From Chloroflexota bacterium (GTDB lineage Bacteria; Chloroflexota; Anaerolineae; Anaerolineales; UBA11579): a stretch of DNA of 64,000 bases. Below, in pieces: positions 40,361 to 48,777 of this stretch. Numbering within the stretch: the first letter of the stretch is position 1; every line of letters starts with the position of its first letter. Where the stretch lies: assembly GCA_018662365.1 (NCBI GenBank), contig JABJGH010000035.1, positions 149,040 through 213,039 of the forward strand. The letters are read 5' to 3'. The position numbers and the translations under genes are program-made. The notes under the pieces were generated by a model that ran no database searches, was not told where the DNA came from, and saw nothing but the letters and a program-made list of their open reading frames with translations.

Positions 40361-42175
40361 ATGTCAGAACTAACCATACCCTACGAAGAAACGGAGATCT
40401 ACAAGGTCCGTCATTCCCTTGCCCACATCATGGCCCAGGCCGTCAGCGAACTATTTGAGCCCGGCGAAGCCAAGATCGCCATCGGTCCCCCCATCGATAC
40501 CGGCTTCTACTACGATTTCGAGCTACCGCGTCAACTCACCCCCGAAGATTTCAAGGGCATCGAGAAACGCATGCGCCAGATCATTGGCGGCAAGCACCCC
40601 TTTGAAAAACGCATCGTCACCGCCGAAGAAGCCAAAGCAGAGTTTGCTGGCCAAGAATTCAAGATTGACCTGATCGAAGGGCTCGAAGCAGGCGGCGTAG
40701 ATGAATATGGCGAACCCCTCGAAGGTGACGTTGAGATCTCCTTCTACACCCACGATACCTTCACCGACCTCTGCCGCGGCCCCCATGTCGAGCACACTGG
40801 CCAGATCAATCCTTCCGCCTTCAAGATCATGAGCATCGCCGGCGCCTACTGGCGCGGCGATGAAAAGAATGCCCAACTTCAGCGTGTCTATGGCACGGGT
40901 TGGAAGAACAAAGACGAACTCAAAGCCCATATCCAGATGCTCGAAGAAGCCAAAAAGCGCGACCACCGAAAATTAGGTCGCGAGCTAGACCTCTTCTCCT
41001 TTGACGAGGAAGTTGGCCCCGGCCTCCCCCTCTGGACACCCCGCGGCACCGTCATCATTGACGAGTTAGAAAAATTAGCCAAGGAAGTCGAGCGTCGTCA
41101 CGGTTACAAACAGGTCCGCACCCCCCACCTCACCAAAGAAGACCTCTTTATCCGCAGTGGTCACCTGCCTTATTATGCCGAAGGCATGTATCCCCCCATG
41201 GAACTCGACGGCAGCAATTATTATGTCAAGCCGATGAACTGCCCCTTCCATCATAAGATCTTTGCCAGCAGCCACCGCAGCTACCGAGACCTGCCCCTCC
41301 GTCTCGGCGAATACGGCACTTGTTATCGCTACGAGAAATCCGGCGAACTTTTCGGCCTCATGCGCGTCCGCTCCATGCAGATGAACGACGCCCATATCTA
41401 TGTCTCCGAAGCCCAGTTCGAAGAAGAATTCATGGATGTCATCGACATTTACAAAGAATATTTTGAACTCTTCGGCATCGAAAAATATGTCATGCAGCTC
41501 AGCTTACATGCCGCCGACGGCCTTGGCAAAAAGTACGTCGATAACGAGGCCCTCTGGATCAAGACCGAAGGCATGGTCCGCCAAGCGATGATCAACGGTG
41601 GCGTGCCCTTCGTTGAGGAAAAAGATGAAGCCGCCTTCTACGGCCCCAAGATCGATGTCCAGATCTGGTCCGCCATCGGCCGTGAATTCTCCCTCGCTAC
41701 CAACCAGGTTGACTTCGCCGTTCCCGAGCGTTTTGACCTCACCTTTGTCAATGCCGAAGGCGAAGAAGAAACCCCGCTTTGTATCCACCGTGCCCCACTC
41801 AGCACCCATGAGCGCATGGTCGGTTTTCTCATCGAACATTATGCTGGCAAGTTCCCCGTCTGGCTCTCCCCCGAGCATGTCCGCGTCATCCCCATCACCG
41901 ACGCCCATGCCGACTATGCCAAAAAGTTAGCCGACGACCTCTATAATCAAGGCTTCCGCGCCGAAGCCGACCTCGGTGACAAGCGCATGAACGCCAAGAT
42001 TCGCGATGCCCAAAAGATGCAGGTGCCCTATATGCTCGTCGTTGGTGACGCCGAAGTAGAAAACGGCACCGTCTCCCTCCGCAAACGCGATGGCAGCCAG
42101 CAAGACGGTCTTCCCGTCGCCGAATTTACCGCCATGCTCAAAGAAAAGGTCGAAACCCGCTCCCCGGAGTTGTAG
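40361..42175 (+). CDS. thrS: Threonyl-tRNA synthetase lacking the TGS domain
   Basis: About 604 residues. There is no N-terminal TGS domain: the protein opens directly with the editing domain (HSLAHIMAQAV, later DLCRGPHVEH). The class II core follows (MNCPFHH, RVRSMQMNDAHIYV, CIHRAPLSTHERM), so the zinc ligands Cys, His and His are present. The anticodon domain completes the C-terminus. I chose the ATG at 40361 since GGAG is 8 nt upstream. Codons end in C far more than in most neighbouring genes. The last 65 bp recur twice downstream. Confidence 0.96.
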   Translation: MSELTIPYEETEIYKVRHSLAHIMAQAVSELFEPGEAKIAIGPPIDTGFYYDFELPRQLTPEDFKGIEKRMRQIIGGKHPFEKRIVTAEEAKAEFAGQEFKIDLIEGLEAGGVDEYGEPLEGDVEISFYTHDTFTDLCRGPHVEHTGQINPSAFKIMSIAGAYWRGDEKNAQLQRVYGTGWKNKDELKAHIQMLEEAKKRDHRKLGRELDLFSFDEEVGPGLPLWTPRGTVIIDELEKLAKEVERRHGYKQVRTPHLTKEDLFIRSGHLPYYAEGMYPPMELDGSNYYVKPMNCPFHHKIFASSHRSYRDLPLRLGEYGTCYRYEKSGELFGLMRVRSMQMNDAHIYVSEAQFEEEFMDVIDIYKEYFELFGIEKYVMQLSLHAADGLGKKYVDNEALWIKTEGMVRQAMINGGVPFVEEKDEAAFYGPKIDVQIWSAIGREFSLATNQVDFAVPERFDLTFVNAEGEEETPLCIHRAPLSTHERMVGFLIEHYAGKFPVWLSPEHVRVIPITDAHADYAKKLADDLYNQGFRAEADLGDKRMNAKIRDAQKMQVPYMLVVGDAEVENGTVSLRKRDGSQQDGLPVAEFTAMLKEKVETRSPEL

Positions 42176-42199
42176 AACCAATTATTTCATTAATGGAAT

Positions 42200-42454
42200 G
42201 GAGAATGGGAGCATTTGCTCTTCCCCATTCTCCCAGGAAGACGTTTTTTGTCTTCCACCATTCTACAAGGAAGCGGTTTTATCGCTTCCAATTCTCCTAA
42301 GGAAGATGGCTGTTGTCTTCCAGAAGACGTTTTATCGCTTCCAGAAATCGTTTTTCGATTTCCAATCTTCAAAAATGTAGAATGGGGGTTCTTGTTGTCC
42401 CCCATTCTACAAGGAAATCGTTTTTCGATTTCCACTTTCCTGCGAAGGCAGGAA
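42200..42454. repeat. Palindrome cluster A downstream of thrS
   Basis: A dense array without a gene. Long hairpins are at 42200-42233 (stem GGAGAATGGG) and 42377-42410 (stem GTAGAATGGGGG). Six 21-nt mini-hairpins of the form 7-bp stem, 7-nt loop lie at 42236, 42269, 42301, 42322, 42343 and 42413. A TTCCTGC-GAAG-GCAGGAA hairpin is at 42437-42454. The stems of the mini-hairpins differ but almost all keep pairing (GGAAGAC, GGAAGCG, GGAAGAT, AGAAATC, GGAAATC). The remaining sequence to 42595 holds the leader of the next gene. Confidence 0.88.
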
Positions 42455-42595
42455 TCCTGATTGTTTCTCCTTTAAACCTTGAGCAGCGTACCATCATTTC
42501 AGAAACAGTCAAATTTCGTTGTACAATGGAAGTACACAGTTTGAACGGGGGCAAAACAAACGGAACGATGATTTTTTTCTGAGAAAGGAGTCAAT

Positions 42596-42937
42596 ATGAA
42601 GAATCGATTCTGGACTTTTATTCCCGCTACCAAACTCGGCAAGTGGTCTGTCGCCCTCATTATCGCCATGTTTTTGCTCTTTTTCCTCGGCTCCTCCCTC
42701 ACCAACACCCTCTATCGCGATATCCCCTCCGGCAGCACCATCCCCGCAGATATTTTTGCCCGCCCCGTCCTTGGCCTTGCCATGCTCTCCGGCATGCTTG
42801 CCGGGGTTGTAGCCCTCTTCACCGGGCTGTTTGCCATCAAAAACCAACACGAACGCTCCCCCCTCGTCTACATTTCCACCCTCATTGGCGCACTTCTCCT
42901 CGTCTTTTTAATTGCAGAGGTCCTCTTTCCCCATTAG
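42596..42937 (+). CDS. Small membrane protein, unknown
   Basis: The product has 113 residues with three hydrophobic helices (about 18-35, 58-80, 88-108) and a basic N-terminus. No family recognised. Start ATG follows AAAGGAG at 6 nt. Codon use is C-ending like thrS, which suggests long residence or a shared source. It sits between thrS and a degenerate copy of the thrS 3' end, so it may be cargo of the duplication described there. Confidence 0.75.
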   Translation: MKNRFWTFIPATKLGKWSVALIIAMFLLFFLGSSLTNTLYRDIPSGSTIPADIFARPVLGLAMLSGMLAGVVALFTGLFAIKNQHERSPLVYISTLIGALLLVFLIAEVLFPH

Positions 42938-42975
42938 GTTTATAAAGCAGGGGATATAGATTAGCAAAGAGAAAT

Positions 42976-43094
42976 ATCTCCACCTATAAACGCGCCGACA
43001 GCAAACAAGACCGGATTTCAATCCGAGCCTCCCCATATCCGACTTCGCCGACATGCTTAAAGAGAAGGTCGAAAGCCGCTCCCCTGAGTTGTAA
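42976..43094 (+). pseudogene. Degenerate copy 2 of the thrS 3' end
   Basis: Positions 43029-43093 match 42110-42174 of thrS at 53 of 65 bases. In frame it reads MLKEKVESRSPEL and stop, against MLKEKVETRSPEL in thrS. Weaker similarity extends upstream to 42976 (aligned with thrS from 42071), with a 14-nt insertion that breaks the frame. The differences are mostly conservative, so it looks like the C-terminus of a related thrS rather than random decay. Confidence 0.85.
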
Positions 43095-43113
43095 GAAGTG
43101 AAATTTGCTTAAT

Positions 43114-43261
43114 GGAGAATGGGGAGCCTTATCTTTTCCCCATTCTCCAAGGAATCCGTTTTATGGATTCCACCATTCCTGCGAAGGCAGGAATCTCGCT
43201 TTACCTCCCAATTCTCCAAGGAAACCGTTATTTGGTTTCCAGAAGTCGTTTTATGACTTCC
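43114..43261. repeat. Palindrome cluster B after the second thrS end
   Basis: One long hairpin at 43114-43148 (stem GGAGAATGGGGA) is followed by mini-hairpins at 43151 (stem GGAATCC), 43220 (GGAAACC) and 43241 (AGAAGTC), and by ATTCCTGC-GAAG-GCAGGAAT at 43175-43194. The order repeats that of cluster A. Confidence 0.88.
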
Positions 43262-43312
43262 AGCGCCCTTGTTCTCCTCCTTTAAATCTATTATTCTTAA
43301 GTTCGAGGTTTT

Positions 43313-43810
43313 ATGACGAATTCTGATACCCCCACCGATTGCTCACTTTGTGAGTGGTTGCCCGATGACCCCGATTATGTGTTTCTGCATGAAACCGAGT
43401 ACTGGCGCATTGTTCTAGCCCCCAATCAAAGCCTTTTGGGGCGGTGCGTGGTTTCCCTGAAAAGACATTCTGGCGACTTAGCCGACCAAACCCCCGAAGA
43501 AGTATTAGATTGGCTAAACATCTTGCAACTGCTTGAAAAATCGCTCCGGTTAGCATTTGACGCCACCATGTTTAATTGGTCTTGCTATATGAACCACGCT
43601 TATCGAGAGTCCCCACCCGCACCCCATATTCATTGGTGGGCTGTCCCACGCTATAATCACCCTGTCCATTTCGAGAATAAGGTCTTTGAAGATGCTCAAT
43701 TTGGTAATCCCTATCACCACGATCAGATTGATCTGCTTCCCAAAGAACTCCATCACCAGATTGCAGAAAAACTGAAAGTGGCTATTAATAAATCACTTTC
43801 TAAAGAGTAA
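43313..43810 (+). CDS. HIT-family (histidine triad-like) protein
   Basis: The product has 165 residues. The N-terminal CSLCEW pair may bind zinc. The core ends in PHIHWWAVPRY, a histidine-triad variant in which the third His is replaced by Trp, as in ApaH/HIT-like hydrolases with degenerate motifs. LVSLKRH-like VVSLKRHSGDLADQTPEE supports the family. It might hydrolyse dinucleoside polyphosphates. Start ATG has GAGG upstream. It lies between thrS-end copies 2 and 3. Confidence 0.82.
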   Translation: MTNSDTPTDCSLCEWLPDDPDYVFLHETEYWRIVLAPNQSLLGRCVVSLKRHSGDLADQTPEEVLDWLNILQLLEKSLRLAFDATMFNWSCYMNHAYRESPPAPHIHWWAVPRYNHPVHFENKVFEDAQFGNPYHHDQIDLLPKELHHQIAEKLKVAINKSLSKE

Positions 43811-43847
43811 GTTTTCTCTCTTTTCCCCCGGAACCTCCCACCAGGCC

Positions 43848-43900
43848 AAATTCGCCGTAATGCCCAAAGATAAGTTGAATGCGGCTCACCTGAATTATAT
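43848..43900 (+). pseudogene. Degenerate copy 3 of the thrS 3' end
   Basis: The stretch from AAATTCGCCG to TTATAT aligns with thrS 42123-42175 with about three quarters identity and one single-base gap. It shares TTCGCCG and CCTGA with copy 2, so it is closer to that copy than to thrS itself. It is not translatable as a ThrRS end. Confidence 0.65.
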
Positions 43901-43933
43901 AAATAACAAAATTAATTTTCTATTATTATGAAC

Positions 43934-43963
43934 GAAAGGTCGTCTTTGGCCTTCTTTTTTTTT
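43934..43963 (+). terminator. Probable terminator before the defence-like gene
   Basis: GAAGGTC (one bulged A) pairs with GGCCTTC, followed by nine T. Confidence 0.6.
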
Positions 43964-43970
43964 GTGATGA

Positions 43971-43998
43971 TTGACTCAAAAGGGTAAGACTGTATAAT
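43971..43998 (+). promoter_or_regulatory. Promoter of the AAA-DUF4435 gene
   Basis: TTGACT and TATAAT are separated by 16 bp. Start of transcription falls near 44005, and AAAGGAG precedes the ATG at 44058. Confidence 0.8.
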
Positions 43999-44057
43999 AA
44001 TATATGTTTTGGAGATACTGAATATTTTTATACGGGTGGCTTTAAAGGAGAATAACA

Positions 44058-45653
44058 ATGAAAATCGAATTGCCCAATAAAACAAACGCTTCAGAAAGGA
44101 CTAATATAGATTCAAAAAGTGTTGTGGTTATTGGTGCAAATGGGGCTGGTAAAACGCGGTTTGGTTCTGAAATTGAAAGAACACACCTTCGGAAAACACA
44201 TAGAATCTCTGCACAAAAATCTTTATCAATGCCAGAACAAGTTAGCCCCACATCAATGAAAAATGCAGAAAATGATTTTCGTTATGGTCACACTAGAGGA
44301 AATTTTAATAATATAATCACAAGTCGCTGGAGTAGTAAACCTAACACTTTTTTATTAAACGACTATGGAAAACTAATGGTTTTGCTTCACACTGAAGAAT
44401 ACGAAGAATCTATAAAATTTAAGTACTCCTACTCCCCTGGTCAAGGGGATGATAAACCAGTAACAAAGTTAGATAGAATAAAGAATATTTGGGAAAAAGT
44501 ACTTCCTCACCGAAAAATAAAAATTAATGCAGGAAATATTGAAACTTACCCAACAAATTTCCCTGATACCAAATACAATGCCGCTGAAATGAGTGACGGT
44601 GAAAGGGTTGTTTTTTATTTAATTGGGGAGGTTGTTTCAGTTTCGGAAAACTCAATTTTAGTAATTGATGAACCCGAGATGCACCTTCACAAATCGATAA
44701 TAAAACCATTGTGGGACAGAATTGAACACGAAAGACCAGATTGCACTTTTATATATTTGACTCACGATATTGACTTTGCTTTGTCTCGCCTAAATTCAAC
44801 GAAAATATGGGTAAAGGGTTACGATGGAGTGTCATGGGATTATGAAATACTAGAAGAGAATGACAAAATACCAGAACAGCTTTATCTTGAAATTCTTGGA
44901 AGTAGAAAACCCGTATTGTTTATTGAAGGGGACGATTCGAGCATAGATTACAAATTGTTTCAGCTGACATTTCCTGACCACAATGTAAAACCAATAGGGG
45001 GTTGCACAAAGGTTTTTGAAACAACGAAAGCATTTAATGAACAAAAATCTTTTCACCACATCGAATCTTTTGGCTTGATCGATAGGGATAGAAGATCTGA
45101 TGAAGATATAAGAAAAATCGAAAAGAGAAATATATGGATTGCCGATGTAGCTGAAGCCGAAAATTTCCTTTTATTAGAAGAAGTGATTTTCATTGTTGCA
45201 AACAAGATGAATAAAGATGCAAAAGGGGTATTTGAGTCGGTAAAAATCAATGTGATTGATTTTTTTAGTAGCCAAATTGAGTTTCAATCCGCACAACATA
45301 CTTTGGCCAGCATTGAGACAAATCTAGGAAAAGCAACTAACTTTAAGAGTATCAAAAATTACTCGGATTTAGAAACAAGTTTAAATGATTATTGGGCTAA
45401 TCTGGATATTGCAAACACGTTCAATATAATAAAAACTAAATTTGAAACGTTAGTTTCAAACCAGGACTATGTTGGAATTTTGAAAGTTTTTAATAATAAG
45501 GGACTAATTCCAAATTCAAAGGTAGCAAGTTTGTGCGATCTAAAATCATCCAATAATGCTTACCTTAATTTTATATTGGCTATATTAAAAGAAAAATCAA
45601 AAAGCAGTGAGATTATTCAAGAGGCTATAACTAGAAATGTGCGGATGGATTAA
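44058..45653 (+). CDS. Fused AAA ATPase-DUF4435 (TOPRIM-like) protein, PARIS/OLD-like
   Basis: The product has 531 residues. The ABC-type ATPase half has Walker A GANGAGKTRFG, signature MSDGERVVFY, Walker B ILVIDEPEMHLH and LTHD. The second half from about residue 285 begins PVLFIEGDDSSIDYKLFQ and includes FGLIDRDRRSDEDI, the acidic E...DxD arrangement of TOPRIM/DUF4435 nuclease domains. AriA (ATPase) and AriB (DUF4435) form the PARIS anti-phage system, and fused forms are known; OLD nucleases share the logic. A defence role is inferred. AT-rich relative to neighbours. Confidence 0.82.
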   Translation: MKIELPNKTNASERTNIDSKSVVVIGANGAGKTRFGSEIERTHLRKTHRISAQKSLSMPEQVSPTSMKNAENDFRYGHTRGNFNNIITSRWSSKPNTFLLNDYGKLMVLLHTEEYEESIKFKYSYSPGQGDDKPVTKLDRIKNIWEKVLPHRKIKINAGNIETYPTNFPDTKYNAAEMSDGERVVFYLIGEVVSVSENSILVIDEPEMHLHKSIIKPLWDRIEHERPDCTFIYLTHDIDFALSRLNSTKIWVKGYDGVSWDYEILEENDKIPEQLYLEILGSRKPVLFIEGDDSSIDYKLFQLTFPDHNVKPIGGCTKVFETTKAFNEQKSFHHIESFGLIDRDRRSDEDIRKIEKRNIWIADVAEAENFLLLEEVIFIVANKMNKDAKGVFESVKINVIDFFSSQIEFQSAQHTLASIETNLGKATNFKSIKNYSDLETSLNDYWANLDIANTFNIIKTKFETLVSNQDYVGILKVFNNKGLIPNSKVASLCDLKSSNNAYLNFILAILKEKSKSSEIIQEAITRNVRMD

Positions 45654-45786
45654 TATTAAAAACAATTGCCATTGCCTTTTAGTTATTTTGCATGTTTAAA
45701 TATAACACCTAGTTCCAAGTTTTATAAATAATCCTTGTCAAAAATAAATATAATTCAGAAAAATTACCAAAAATCCAGGGTCTTTA

Positions 45787-46386
45787 ATGAGTGCTAGTTT
45801 ACAATCAATCCCCGTAATCCAAAAACAAGGTGACGATCCTTTCCTCAGCAAGGGGGAATGTCTGAAAAATAAGTTAATCAACTTCTGGCAGTGGGCATTT
45901 TCCGACCTCTCAAATAATGCCATTCGTGGAGTTTTAGCCGAATACATTATTGCCTATCAGTTAGGCATTACAGAAGGAGTTAGAACAGAATGGGATGCGT
46001 ATGATTTAGAAACGAAAGATGGGGTTAAGCTTGAAATAAAATCTGCTGCCTATCTTCAGTCTTGGGAGCAAAAAGAACTTTCAGCCATTTCCTTTGGCAT
46101 TGCCCCCACTCAAGGCTGGAATGCCAGCACAAATGAGTACAGTAATGAAGTCAAAAGACAGGCCGACATCTATATTTTTTGCCTTTTGCACCATAAAGAC
46201 AAACTGACCCTCAATCCTTTAGATTTAGATCAATGGACCATTTATCTTTTACCCACCAAAATCCTAAACGAAAAAATCCCAATGCAAAAAACGATAAGAT
46301 TGTCCTCTTTGCTCAAACTAAATCCAATCGAGACCACCTTTGAAAACATTGAAAGTGCGCTAAAGGCTATTGCTAATGAACAATAA
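45787..46386 (+). CDS. Conserved protein with PD-(D/E)XK-like motif
   Basis: The product has 199 residues. It opens with SKGECLKNKLINFWQWAFSDLSNNAIRG, then LAEYIIAYQLG, EWDAYDLET and LEIKSAAYLQSW. Asp followed by E-x-K with an upstream Glu fits a PD-(D/E)XK nuclease core, yet no activity is documented that I can name. The second half (ADIYIFCLLHH, LDLDQWTIYLLPT) is also conserved in such proteins. It is 133 nt after the AAA-DUF4435 gene, and its 3' end overlaps the next gene by 11 nt. Confidence 0.72.
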   Translation: MSASLQSIPVIQKQGDDPFLSKGECLKNKLINFWQWAFSDLSNNAIRGVLAEYIIAYQLGITEGVRTEWDAYDLETKDGVKLEIKSAAYLQSWEQKELSAISFGIAPTQGWNASTNEYSNEVKRQADIYIFCLLHHKDKLTLNPLDLDQWTIYLLPTKILNEKIPMQKTIRLSSLLKLNPIETTFENIESALKAIANEQ

Positions 46387-46894
46387 ATCCAAGAAAATCA
46401 TCGTTATTCTGGTTATTCTTATTTTATGTGGTGTTGTTTCTGGAATACTACTCCTAGCAACAAGCGGTTTTTCCTTGATAAAAACCTCCCCCGAAGCATC
46501 CGCCCATTACTATTTGACTATCAATGAAGCGATTGCCAATGATTCCTATTCAAATATGCAAATCCGCATTTCGGGTGCAGTTATCGGAGATAGCATTCAA
46601 CATAATCAAGAAAAAAACGAACTAACCTTTTTGCTCGCCGATCTCCCCGCAGACTATTCTGTTGTTGAAAAACCAGGGGAGTTGCTGGATTTATTGGAAA
46701 ATGTTGTGAATGACCCAAACATCCAAACGATCCAAGTAGTATTTTCTGGGTCCCCACCAGCACTTCTTGTAAATAAAGCCCAAGCGATTATGATTGGTGA
46801 AATTCAATCCGATGGTGTGTTTTATGCAGATGAAATACTTTTAAAATGCCCATCCCGCTATGAAGAAGCTGTACCAGACCAAGTAATGGACTAA
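46376..46894 (+). CDS. CcmE-like OB-fold protein with CxxxY motif
   Basis: About 172 residues. One N-terminal membrane anchor is followed by an OB-fold domain with the CcmE pattern: RISGAVIGDSI, LTFLLADL, IQVVFSGSPPALL, and IMIGEIQSDGVFYADEILLKCPSRYEEA. The heme-binding HxxxY is Cys158-P-S-R-Tyr162, the CxxxY variant found in archaea and some anaerobes. No other cytochrome c maturation gene is in the window. The ATG at 46376 lies inside the preceding gene; an upstream in-frame TTG is less likely. Confidence 0.75.
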   Translation: MNNKSKKIIVILVILILCGVVSGILLLATSGFSLIKTSPEASAHYYLTINEAIANDSYSNMQIRISGAVIGDSIQHNQEKNELTFLLADLPADYSVVEKPGELLDLLENVVNDPNIQTIQVVFSGSPPALLVNKAQAIMIGEIQSDGVFYADEILLKCPSRYEEAVPDQVMD

Positions 46895-46981
46895 ATTATT
46901 CGTCTTGGTCTTTTAAATCCACTCCCAAGTCCTCACATCCTCTTATTTTTCATTTTTTAATCGCATTTGATATGTATTTTC

Positions 46982-47111
46982 TTGCAACCTAACCCCATTC
47001 CATAAAGAAGTTAGCATAATCCACGTCAACTCAATAATGTTCCATTCGGGGTTCAAAGGGGGTGAAACCCCCTTGCGGGGGTGGTGGGGGTAAGCGCCCC
47101 CACCAAAAAAA
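46982..47111 (-). repeat. Intergenic repeat, copy 1
   Basis: Shares with copy 2 the termini (TTGCAA-CTAACCC at one end, CCCCCACCAAAAAA at the other) and a 34-bp identical block at 47030-47063. It contains a GGGGG-TGAAA-CCCCC hairpin. Confidence 0.75.
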
Positions 47112-47170
47112 AGGAAAATGCCCCAATAACAAATCCACTGCATCCACCCGGTGCCGCCCCGGTCCCAAAT

Positions 47171-47266
47171 TCCTCTCACAAAATTACTTGCCCGGGTACT
47201 AACGTGTCCAAAATCCCCTCACAAATTTACTTACCCGGGCACTAAAAATACTTGCCCGGCAACTAA
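47171..47266. repeat. Degenerate tandem repeat with CCCGGG core
   Basis: Two 32-bp units at 47171-47202 and 47214-47245 match at 28 of 32 bases and lie 43 bp apart. A shortened third unit (ACTTGCCCGG-AACTAA) ends at 47266. Each contains TTACTTRCCCGG before ACTAA. Confidence 0.75.
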
Positions 47267-47388
47267 TTTAAACATTTGCACAAAAAATAGATGCACACCT
47301 GTTGGGGTAGGGGGGTTAAGAAGGGGTCGAAAAACCCAAAAACCAACTAGTCCTTTTATCCCCCTTTTCTAAATTTTCCTTCTAAATG

Positions 47389-47446
47389 TGGAGAATGGGG
47401 CGTTGTATTTTGTCCCATTCTCCTAAGGAAACGGTTTTATCGTTTC
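47389..47446. repeat. Palindrome pair of the thrS-end type
   Basis: A long hairpin (stem GGAGAATGGG, 47389-47422) is followed after three bases by a 21-nt mini-hairpin (stem GGAAACG, loop GTTTTAT, 47426-47446), the same order as in clusters A and B. Confidence 0.85.
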
Positions 47447-47501
47447 CAAATTCCCCACATCCGAAACTTTGCAATTTTAGGGAATATGTATTCAAGGCTT
47501 C

Positions 47502-47680
47502 TTGCAATCTAACCCTCAACCTAAAGACTTCAGCAGGTTCCTCGCCCACTCAATAATGTTCCATTCGGGGTTCAAAGGGGGTTTGGAATAAAAAACATTC
47601 CTTGGAGAATGAGGTGAAACCTCATTCTCCCTTAGCGAAGCGGCGGGGTGAGTGGGGGGACTTACCCCCACCAAAAAACA
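47502..47680 (-). repeat. Intergenic repeat, copy 2, enlarged by palindromes
   Basis: Matches copy 1 at both ends and through the block around 47550-47583. Its middle carries extra hairpins: GGAAT-ATTCC at 47585-47601 and GGAGAATGAGG-TGAAA-CCTCATTCTCC at 47604-47630. The two copies thus differ by insertion or exchange of palindromic segments. Confidence 0.72.
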
Positions 47681-47876
47681 AAATAAAGCCAAATTAATCC
47701 TGATCTCATTCCTACAATAGTAGCTATCTAACCTAAAGTACCACCAAATTGATGCTTGCATAAACAGAACATGTGTGCTACAATCTAAGCTAGACGGGAG
47801 GGACATTGTTTTTGGGGCGTTTCAAAACCATGCAAAAGAAAAAAAGAAATAAACCAGCTTAATCAATTCTAAACCC

Positions 47877-47896
47877 GCAGCAAAGCGCTTTGCTGC
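47877..47896. repeat. 20-bp perfect palindrome
   Basis: GCAGCAAAGC and its exact complement without loop. It lies 80 bp beyond the end of the rRNA methyltransferase gene. No T-run follows on either strand, so terminator function is doubtful. Confidence 0.6.
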
Positions 47897-47976
47897 CAAC
47901 TGCAAGACAGCACCTTAACAACTAAATAGGTATACTGCTTCCGGTGAGAACCGCCTGCATAAACGCGCAAAAGAGA

Positions 47977-48777
47977 TCACTTCCGAATCAAATACGCCAA
48001 CTCCGTCTCAAACTCAAACCGCTCCACCGCCCAATCCTTCCCCTCCACCAGCTGATTGAATCGCGCCTCATAATTTTCCCGCATCCCCTTATCCCGTCCC
48101 CCCAAACTCTTCGCCGGAAACGAAACCAAAATATACTTCGCATTCAACTGCTCCAATAACCGTTCCCCAGCCTGCTTATCCACCTGTTCCAAGCAGGGGA
48201 TCGTCTTCAACACCAATGCCAGATCCACCTCGGTACTCGGCGGGTTCGATATCACATCACAGCTCTGAGCCGTCCCATCTATCGGTAACAGATTCAACAC
48301 ATCCTGCACAAACCCGATCATATCCCCATAAATATCACAGGCAAAATACTTCGTCCCGCTCGGCAGGTTCATCCACGGGATCGTCAACGGATTCAACCCG
48401 CACGCAATATCCAGCACCGACTCAAACGGGGGCAAACTCGCAAAGATCGAGGTATAAAAATGATCCAAGATCGGCACGCGTTCCTTGGTAGACGCATGGT
48501 TTTCCATGATCTCCAGCAAAAGCAGCTCAAAGGTCTCAACATCATATTGGTATTCGGTCAGATCTGAGAGCCATTCGGCATACGGTTTTTGGCCGCCCAA
48601 ATAAGCGCCCCCAACCTGATGCAATTTGTTCTTCGTCGCCTTCACCGCCTCTTTCAATTTCCGCCCCTTGGCAAGTTCATCCTTACCGATCCGTGCCACC
48701 AATCCCGGGTGTATCGCCCGATATTTAGCGCTCCCCAGCACAGCCGCGATCAATTGATCTAAAACCTCATCCACCAT
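47977..48777 (-). CDS. 16S rRNA m7G1405 methyltransferase homolog (ArmA/Rmt family)
   Basis: The product has 266 residues. The family phrases are clear: helical N-terminal domain with KYRAIHPGLVARI and KNKLHQVGGAYL; HASTKERVPILDHFYTSIF; SAM site VLDIACGLNPLTIPW; CDIYGDMIGFV; and VSFPAKSLGGRDKGMRENY near the C-terminus with ELAYLIRK. Members methylate N7 of G1405 in 16S rRNA and block 4,6-disubstituted aminoglycosides such as gentamicin. Its start overlaps tgt by 11 nt, so both are made from one RNA. Whether it gives resistance or has a native role is open. Confidence 0.9.
   Translation of the reverse strand: MVDEVLDQLIAAVLGSAKYRAIHPGLVARIGKDELAKGRKLKEAVKATKNKLHQVGGAYLGGQKPYAEWLSDLTEYQYDVETFELLLLEIMENHASTKERVPILDHFYTSIFASLPPFESVLDIACGLNPLTIPWMNLPSGTKYFACDIYGDMIGFVQDVLNLLPIDGTAQSCDVISNPPSTEVDLALVLKTIPCLEQVDKQAGERLLEQLNAKYILVSFPAKSLGGRDKGMRENYEARFNQLVEGKDWAVERFEFETELAYLIRK

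Follow-up and report, generated by a model that had tools for sequence, protein, structure and literature searches.

PARIS is a known bacterial antiviral defense in which the infected cell sacrifices itself. In the available part of one survey (PMC9122126), it is reported to be present in 5.2% of genomes, either with its two genes separate or with both fused into one; the fusions were described there in 2022 and were sought with their own profile, which was run as a "loner", and the DUF4435 Toprim domain is given as itself weakly related to OLD. In two-gene PARIS, a hexamer of AriA holds AriB and phage anti-restriction proteins free it; the freed AriB dimerizes and cuts tRNA-Lys, and translation halts (PMC11455837; also the available part of PMC12409363).

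We analyzed a stretch of 64,000 nucleotides from a Chloroflexota contig (hereafter the window), in which a first-pass annotation had singled out two adjacent genes, here called P1 and P2 (Table 1). Our reading, to which we assign a probability of roughly 0.82, is that P1 encodes a single-chain PARIS protein, and P2 a separately acquired, stand-alone PvuII/BisI-like endonuclease that is often borne by prophages. Judged from its sequence, P1 is the one-protein version of this defense.

Table 1. Positions of the two genes and of the features upstream of them in the window
Feature	Position	Strand	Remarks
thrS 3' end, in the gene itself	42080-42175		
thrS 3' end, second copy	42988-43093		alignment score 89
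thrS 3' end, third copy	43836-43899		decayed; score 46.5; ~160 bp before P1
Terminator-like hairpin and T run	43936..43962	+	between the 43313 gene and P1
Sigma-70-like promoter, TTGACT-16-TATAAT	43971..43998	+	11/12, consensus match only; upstream of P1
P1	44058..45653	+	531 aa; fused AriAB (PARIS) protein; coordinates confirmed
P1, ABC/AAA ATPase half	~residues 1-282		
P1, DUF4435/Toprim nuclease half	~residues 283-515		
P2	45787..46386	+	199 aa; stand-alone, with a nuclease fold of PD-(D/E)XK (PvuII/BisI-like) type; regarded as independent of P1; coordinates confirmed

The ATPase-Toprim protein and fused PARIS

The first gene had been annotated as encoding AAA and DUF4435 domains in a single chain, and Pfam bore this out: AAA_21 matched residues 174-237 of P1 (42.9 bits against a cut-off of 27), and DUF4435 matched residues 283-515 of the same chain (67.1 bits against a cut-off of 27; E 2.7e-18). 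The rule for fused PARIS in the available part of PMC9122126, namely AAA_15 or AAA_21 together with DUF4435 in one protein at Pfam-type thresholds, thus describes P1 when it is scored with Pfam models in place of the paper's own fusion profiles. The proposed comparison with PARIS, OLD and Gabija profiles pointed to fused AriAB, and the profile search did not place P1 in a housekeeping AAA family. The PADLOC fused AriAB model PDLC02982 matched P1 over its full length (E 1.3e-140, 467.8 bits; residues 2-522 on profile positions 26-559 of 570), far better than did the second AriAB model and the separate AriA and AriB models (E 1.3e-17 to 1.8e-13, the latter value being that of AriB). When P1 was aligned with 14 relatives, the same AriAB model matched each of the 15 rows. 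Both sets of catalytic motifs are intact in P1 and invariant in all 15 rows: G26-A-N-G-x-G-K32, S179-D180-G181-E182, P206-E207, H211 and T235-H236-D237 in the ATPase half, and E290-G291, D342-x-D344, E366 and E368-N369 in the Toprim half. A near full-length match was also found in PHROGs to phrog_25246 (E 1.1e-121), which is labeled "ABC transporter" and classed as a moron.

P1 therefore has the same chain of AAA_21 and DUF4435/Toprim as the PARIS fusion AriAB, at 531 aa against a profile of 570 positions. Since one-gene PARIS fusions are already in print, as the available part of PMC9122126 attests, it belongs to the described fused form, and the earlier suggestion of an undescribed variant is not upheld.

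The chain had also been likened to OLD nucleases, and we weighed the possibility that P1 belongs with the OLD or Gabija-type nucleases and not with PARIS at all. The plan, an ABC-type ATPase joined to a Toprim domain, is the same, and when Foldseek was used alone, cohesin, GajA, Rad50 and PtuA ranked first, so that GajA (8u7i_A, E 2.1e-6) stands high among many ATPases. However, the GajA profile reached only E 9.2e-5, at residues 171-214 in the ATPase signature region, a score far from that of AriAB, and the Gabija, Septu and AbiL PADLOC models were likewise confined to the ATPase half. The nuclease half is DUF4435, with no OLD Toprim family found in it by Pfam at E<=1, and no UvrD-like GajB helicase adjoins P1, whose neighbors are a HIT-like gene, P2 and a CcmE-domain gene (Pfam). 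The OLD and Gabija profiles reach no further than the ATPase part in common, although the DUF4435 Toprim is itself weakly OLD-related; we regard this explanation as highly improbable.

The fused PARIS reading was also compared with predicted structure. The AlphaFold model of P1 had a mean pLDDT of 86.5 and a pTM of 0.52, so that it is uncertain how the two halves are positioned relative to each other. In VIA-align 2, the top match of the ATPase half was E. coli AriA (8v45_C, Z 14.9, rmsd 3.7, 225 aligned). AriA chains from 8v45, 8ux9 and 8v46 led the VIA list at Z 14.9-14.7, although this comparison of ATPase folds does not separate AriA from PtuA of retron Ec83, which ties at Z 14.7, and barely covers the Toprim half. 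P1 shares with two-gene E. coli PARIS an ATPase fold and a DUF4435 nuclease half. It differs in being one chain where that system has separate AriA and AriB chains, and in a sequence that lies beyond the reach of phmmer (E 0.17 to the AriA sequence in the PDB). No AriB chain was found in the PDB by sequence search with P1. The two-gene AriB of a Paraburkholderia sabiae plasmid likewise gave nothing relevant among PDB sequences, and the alignment of nuclease halves, which fits the two-gene AriB row poorly, was left out of the analysis.

By analogy with characterized two-gene PARIS, the most likely activities of P1 are sensing, tRNA cleavage and abortive infection, and the same logic is our best guess because both catalytic sets are kept. 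The AriA-like ATPase half would most likely sense a phage protein, which in known PARIS is an anti-restriction protein, and would keep the AriB-like Toprim half inactive until then. The Toprim half, once released or rearranged, would cut host tRNA, whereupon translation would stop and the infection would abort. AriB release from AriA as published would be impossible in the same manner for P1 unless the chain is cleaved. In addition, the target tRNA and the trigger may differ from those of E. coli PARIS, given the distance from AriA and the lack of an AriB chain among the sequence matches.

Matches to P1 were found in 53 plasmid records, 32 of which cover at least 80% of the query; the closest among the plasmid matches listed is on a Synechocystis plasmid (52% identity, tblastn), and the relatives in Synechocystis and Parabacteroides are single genes, as is P1. 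A scan of genome contigs gave at least seven loci from 595 stretches, six of them genuine AriAB and one (L040) weak. A single-sequence search of viral contigs returned relatives of neither P1 nor P2. Among 298 genomes of the class, 12 matched P1, and four remained as relatives (E<1e-30) after eight with E 2e-6 or weaker were dropped. Among 350 genomes of the phylum, the PADLOC search matched 43, of which 41 with weak rows were dropped as ATPase cross-hits because the same search also matched 6 of 14 control genomes; full-length AriAB thus occurs in two, our own genome and one other (G401). Among 41 near relatives, our own included, a full-length match was found in our own genome only. The neighbors of three relatives, scanned as examples and not as a measure of rate, include other defense genes. 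Both PARIS forms occur together on the P. sabiae plasmid, where a two-gene AriA/AriB pair directly precedes fused AriAB (L028, 3411-7686); elsewhere the fused gene has an OLD/AriA-like ATPase on one side and a TIR protein on the other (L084), or is followed by genes for a type III restriction enzyme and SIR2 (L035).

The adjoining endonuclease-like gene

The second gene had been annotated as PD-(D/E)XK-like, and both sequence and predicted structure support this. In an alignment of P2 with 28 relatives from viral contigs (n=29), W36, R47, E52, E83, K85, A88, Y129, F131 and W150 are invariant, and D73 is kept in at least 90% of the rows. In the AlphaFold model (pLDDT 86.2, pTM 0.84), E52 belongs to a helix and E83-x-K85 to a strand; the residues E52, D73, E83 and K85 make up a PD-(D/E)XK set. 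The structure matches are to restriction endonucleases: Foldseek gave NhoI (8rpx, E 1.1e-4) and Eco15I (E 1.6e-4) as the best, VIA gave Eco15I at Z 9.6, NhoI at Z 9.3 and PvuII at Z 7.3, and I-Ssp6803I and PvuII come after NhoI and Eco15I. These matches define a fold class and not close kinship, since Z values of 8-9 go with poor TM-scores of 0.3-0.5.

Sequence searches gave P2 no family name: there was no Pfam match at E<=1, the best NCBIfam match had E 0.13, and no PHROGs family was found. Among PDB sequences P2 had no match, and a repeat search gave only E>=0.2, to different proteins. The PADLOC model mREase_II (PDLC03212) matched residues 43-101 partially (E 0.0052), and matched 7 of the 29 family rows at E<=1. 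P2 resembles PvuII and the BisI family of modification-dependent endonucleases, a family marked by cleavage of GCNGC bearing 5mC and to which NhoI and Eco15I belong, in fold and in the order of an acidic residue in a helix, an aspartate and then (D/E/Q)-x-K. The catalytic motif is QVK in NhoI and QIK in Eco15I according to the available part of PMC11347163, whereas the P2 family has E-[IV]-K (EIK in P2 itself), and the BisI-type Q-x-K is absent from P2, E83-x-K85 being invariant in the 29 rows. P2 is therefore predicted to be PvuII/BisI-like in fold, and the weak sequence links do not establish membership of the BisI family.

P2 relatives are encoded on 42 viral contigs (L041-L082), and dereplication of all P2 loci left 54, our own included. 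A recombinase of the serine or tyrosine clusters lies at +1/+2 in 18 of the 33 viral loci left after dereplication; these 18 do not amount to 18 independent events because several are near-duplicates, and one of them (L048) has only a short opposite-strand member of a recombinase cluster. Regulators of cI/Cro type lie upstream of the P2 relatives in one cluster of 10 loci. In prophages the family thus recurs with repressor and integrase genes as neighbors, often in the slot between the two. In cellular genomes and plasmids, the relatives are scattered singletons with dissimilar neighbors: 10 of the 298 class genomes and 8 of the 350 phylum genomes carry one, 14 plasmid records match, and 3 of the 41 near relatives have one (our own genome, G622 and G613).

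It might be argued that P2 is an inactive regulator or immunity protein of prophages with a PD-(D/E)XK fold, since it is located in the lysogeny control region, where regulators also occur. However, E52, E83 and K85 are kept in all 29 diverse rows and D73 in nearly all, as expected of an active enzyme, and we think an inactive protein unlikely. For P2 as an endonuclease, the simplest suggestion would be a modification-dependent or otherwise self-restrained nuclease against foreign DNA, since no recurrent methyltransferase partner was seen: among 143 neighboring ORFs (>=100 aa, +/-2 genes) from 50 of the 54 P2 loci, one MmeI-type methyltransferase was found in the 25 of 113 neighbor families displayed.

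Composition, signals and repeats around the two genes

Upstream of P1 lie thrS, identified by eye from its translation, and the HIT-like gene, whose Pfam match to HIT (E 0.07) is under the cut-off. The base composition of P1 (GC 33.6%, GC3 28.0%) is well below that of thrS (GC 55.1%, GC3 67.9%) and tgt (GC 52.0%, GC3 59.0%), P2 being intermediate (GC 39.3%, GC3 39.5%), and within 39-50 kb the GC skew is clearly positive across P1 only. Base composition thus supports a foreign origin of P1.

A ribosome-site-like stretch, AAAGGAG, precedes the ATG of P1. The sigma-70-like site upstream is one of 16 found in the scan, against 13.5 expected in shuffles. The terminator-like hairpin is the sole such site within 43200-48000, a weak signal given the 4.9 expected in shuffles; its position between the 43313 gene and P1 suggests that P1 may start its own transcript. 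Between P1 and P2, which are co-directional and 133 bp apart, the same scan, a weak guide, found no terminator-like site, so that the two may be co-transcribed in this genome.

Downstream, the ATG of a CcmE-domain gene (Pfam) overlaps the 3' end of P2. This gene (46377-46894) is a second, orphan copy, a further one being present in the genome on contig C52; in relatives, a ccmF-sized ORF comes next after ccmE. A unit of P2 and the ccmE-like gene was considered and rejected: the P2 relatives in G622 and G613, of the same family, have no adjoining ccmE, and the ccmE genes of four relatives (L175-L178) have no adjoining P2. The overlap is therefore local, as neither gene adjoins the other in these relatives. 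Further on, an FmrO-family ribosomal RNA methyltransferase is encoded at 47977-48777 on the minus strand (Pfam E 4.3e-58). The FmrO family includes aminoglycoside-resistance enzymes. An ORF that looks similar by eye lies about 4 kb from a fused AriAB relative (L160).

The interval had been described as variable and full of repeats. The repeats are real, but the long families lie outside both ORFs, at 42.2-43.3 kb upstream and 47.0-47.7 kb downstream. Palindrome-like repeats of the form CCCCATTCTCCAAGGAA..GTTTT..TTCC turn up repeatedly in the gaps that flank the genes on either side (42198-43263 and 47389-47614), and a looser core pattern occurs five times in the whole genome, three of them at this locus. 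After the ccmE-like gene, 47003-47697 holds three units of 23 nt together with two long imperfect ones (61 nt at 85% and 55 nt at 71%). Two further copies of the thrS 3' end lie downstream of that gene, and all copies end near the stop codon. The second copy was shown by direct alignment and was not listed by the DNA search of our own genome; the third exceeds both the best of 200 shuffles (41.5) and the best score elsewhere in the window (38.5). None of 20 scored relatives, a set that left out L194, L210, L188 and L209, showed repetition in its thrS 3' flank beyond its own shuffle maximum, and no recombinase was recognized near the copies. From the sequence, DNA appears to have been inserted or accreted repeatedly behind thrS.

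Pairing of the two genes and its meaning

The first-pass annotation had also proposed that the second gene adds a second nuclease. This holds for the fold of P2 and is not supported for its role as a partner, as the two genes do not co-occur in the other loci examined. Counting AriAB loci of at least 192.8 bits, with L086 and L087 taken as one and flanks of 0 to 6 kb a side, we found a P2 relative in none of 22 other fused-AriAB loci, and P1 in none of 53 other dereplicated P2 loci. In the class sample, P1 and P2 occur together only in our own genome and in G038, which carries them on separate contigs; in the phylum sample, full-length AriAB and P2 occur together in our own genome only. No plasmid accession was common to both when the best 30 of the 53 P1 records were compared with all 14 of P2. 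On these locus counts and samples we reject a conserved operon, and the best reading is that P1 and P2 are "loner" genes that were acquired independently and share one variable interval.

Alternatively, P1 and P2 could work together as a two-gene system: PARIS would be triggered by an anti-restriction protein, with P2 as either the restriction nuclease under guard or a second effector. Their adjacency on one strand, the short gap without a terminator-like site and the foreign-looking GC of both genes would fit such a system, as would the sensing of anti-restriction proteins by PARIS (PMC11455837) and the type III restriction enzyme adjoining the P1 relative at L035. However, the pairing recurs at none of the other loci counted, P2 is found repeatedly among prophage repressor and integrase genes, P1 and P2 differ in GC skew and GC3, and the stop of P2 overlaps the start of the ccmE-like gene with no coupling to P1. 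We therefore consider a single system very unlikely. Quite unlikely, too, is a more elaborate proposal, that the P2 family comprises undescribed stand-alone, probably modification-dependent endonucleases that prophages place between repressor and integrase for superinfection immunity, and that P2 is stacked here behind fused PARIS as bait and guard. If this were true, PARIS would be set off by a phage whose anti-restriction protein disarms the P2 nuclease.

Neither gene alters what is known of the types of system. The chief side result is the unannotated P2 family, which is widespread, has no name in Pfam, NCBIfam or PHROGs and takes a regular position in prophages, and is a practical candidate for a new phage-resistance gene. 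P1, as a divergent fused PARIS from beyond the well-studied enterobacteria, would be a test case for the activation of a nuclease that is tethered to its own inhibitor.
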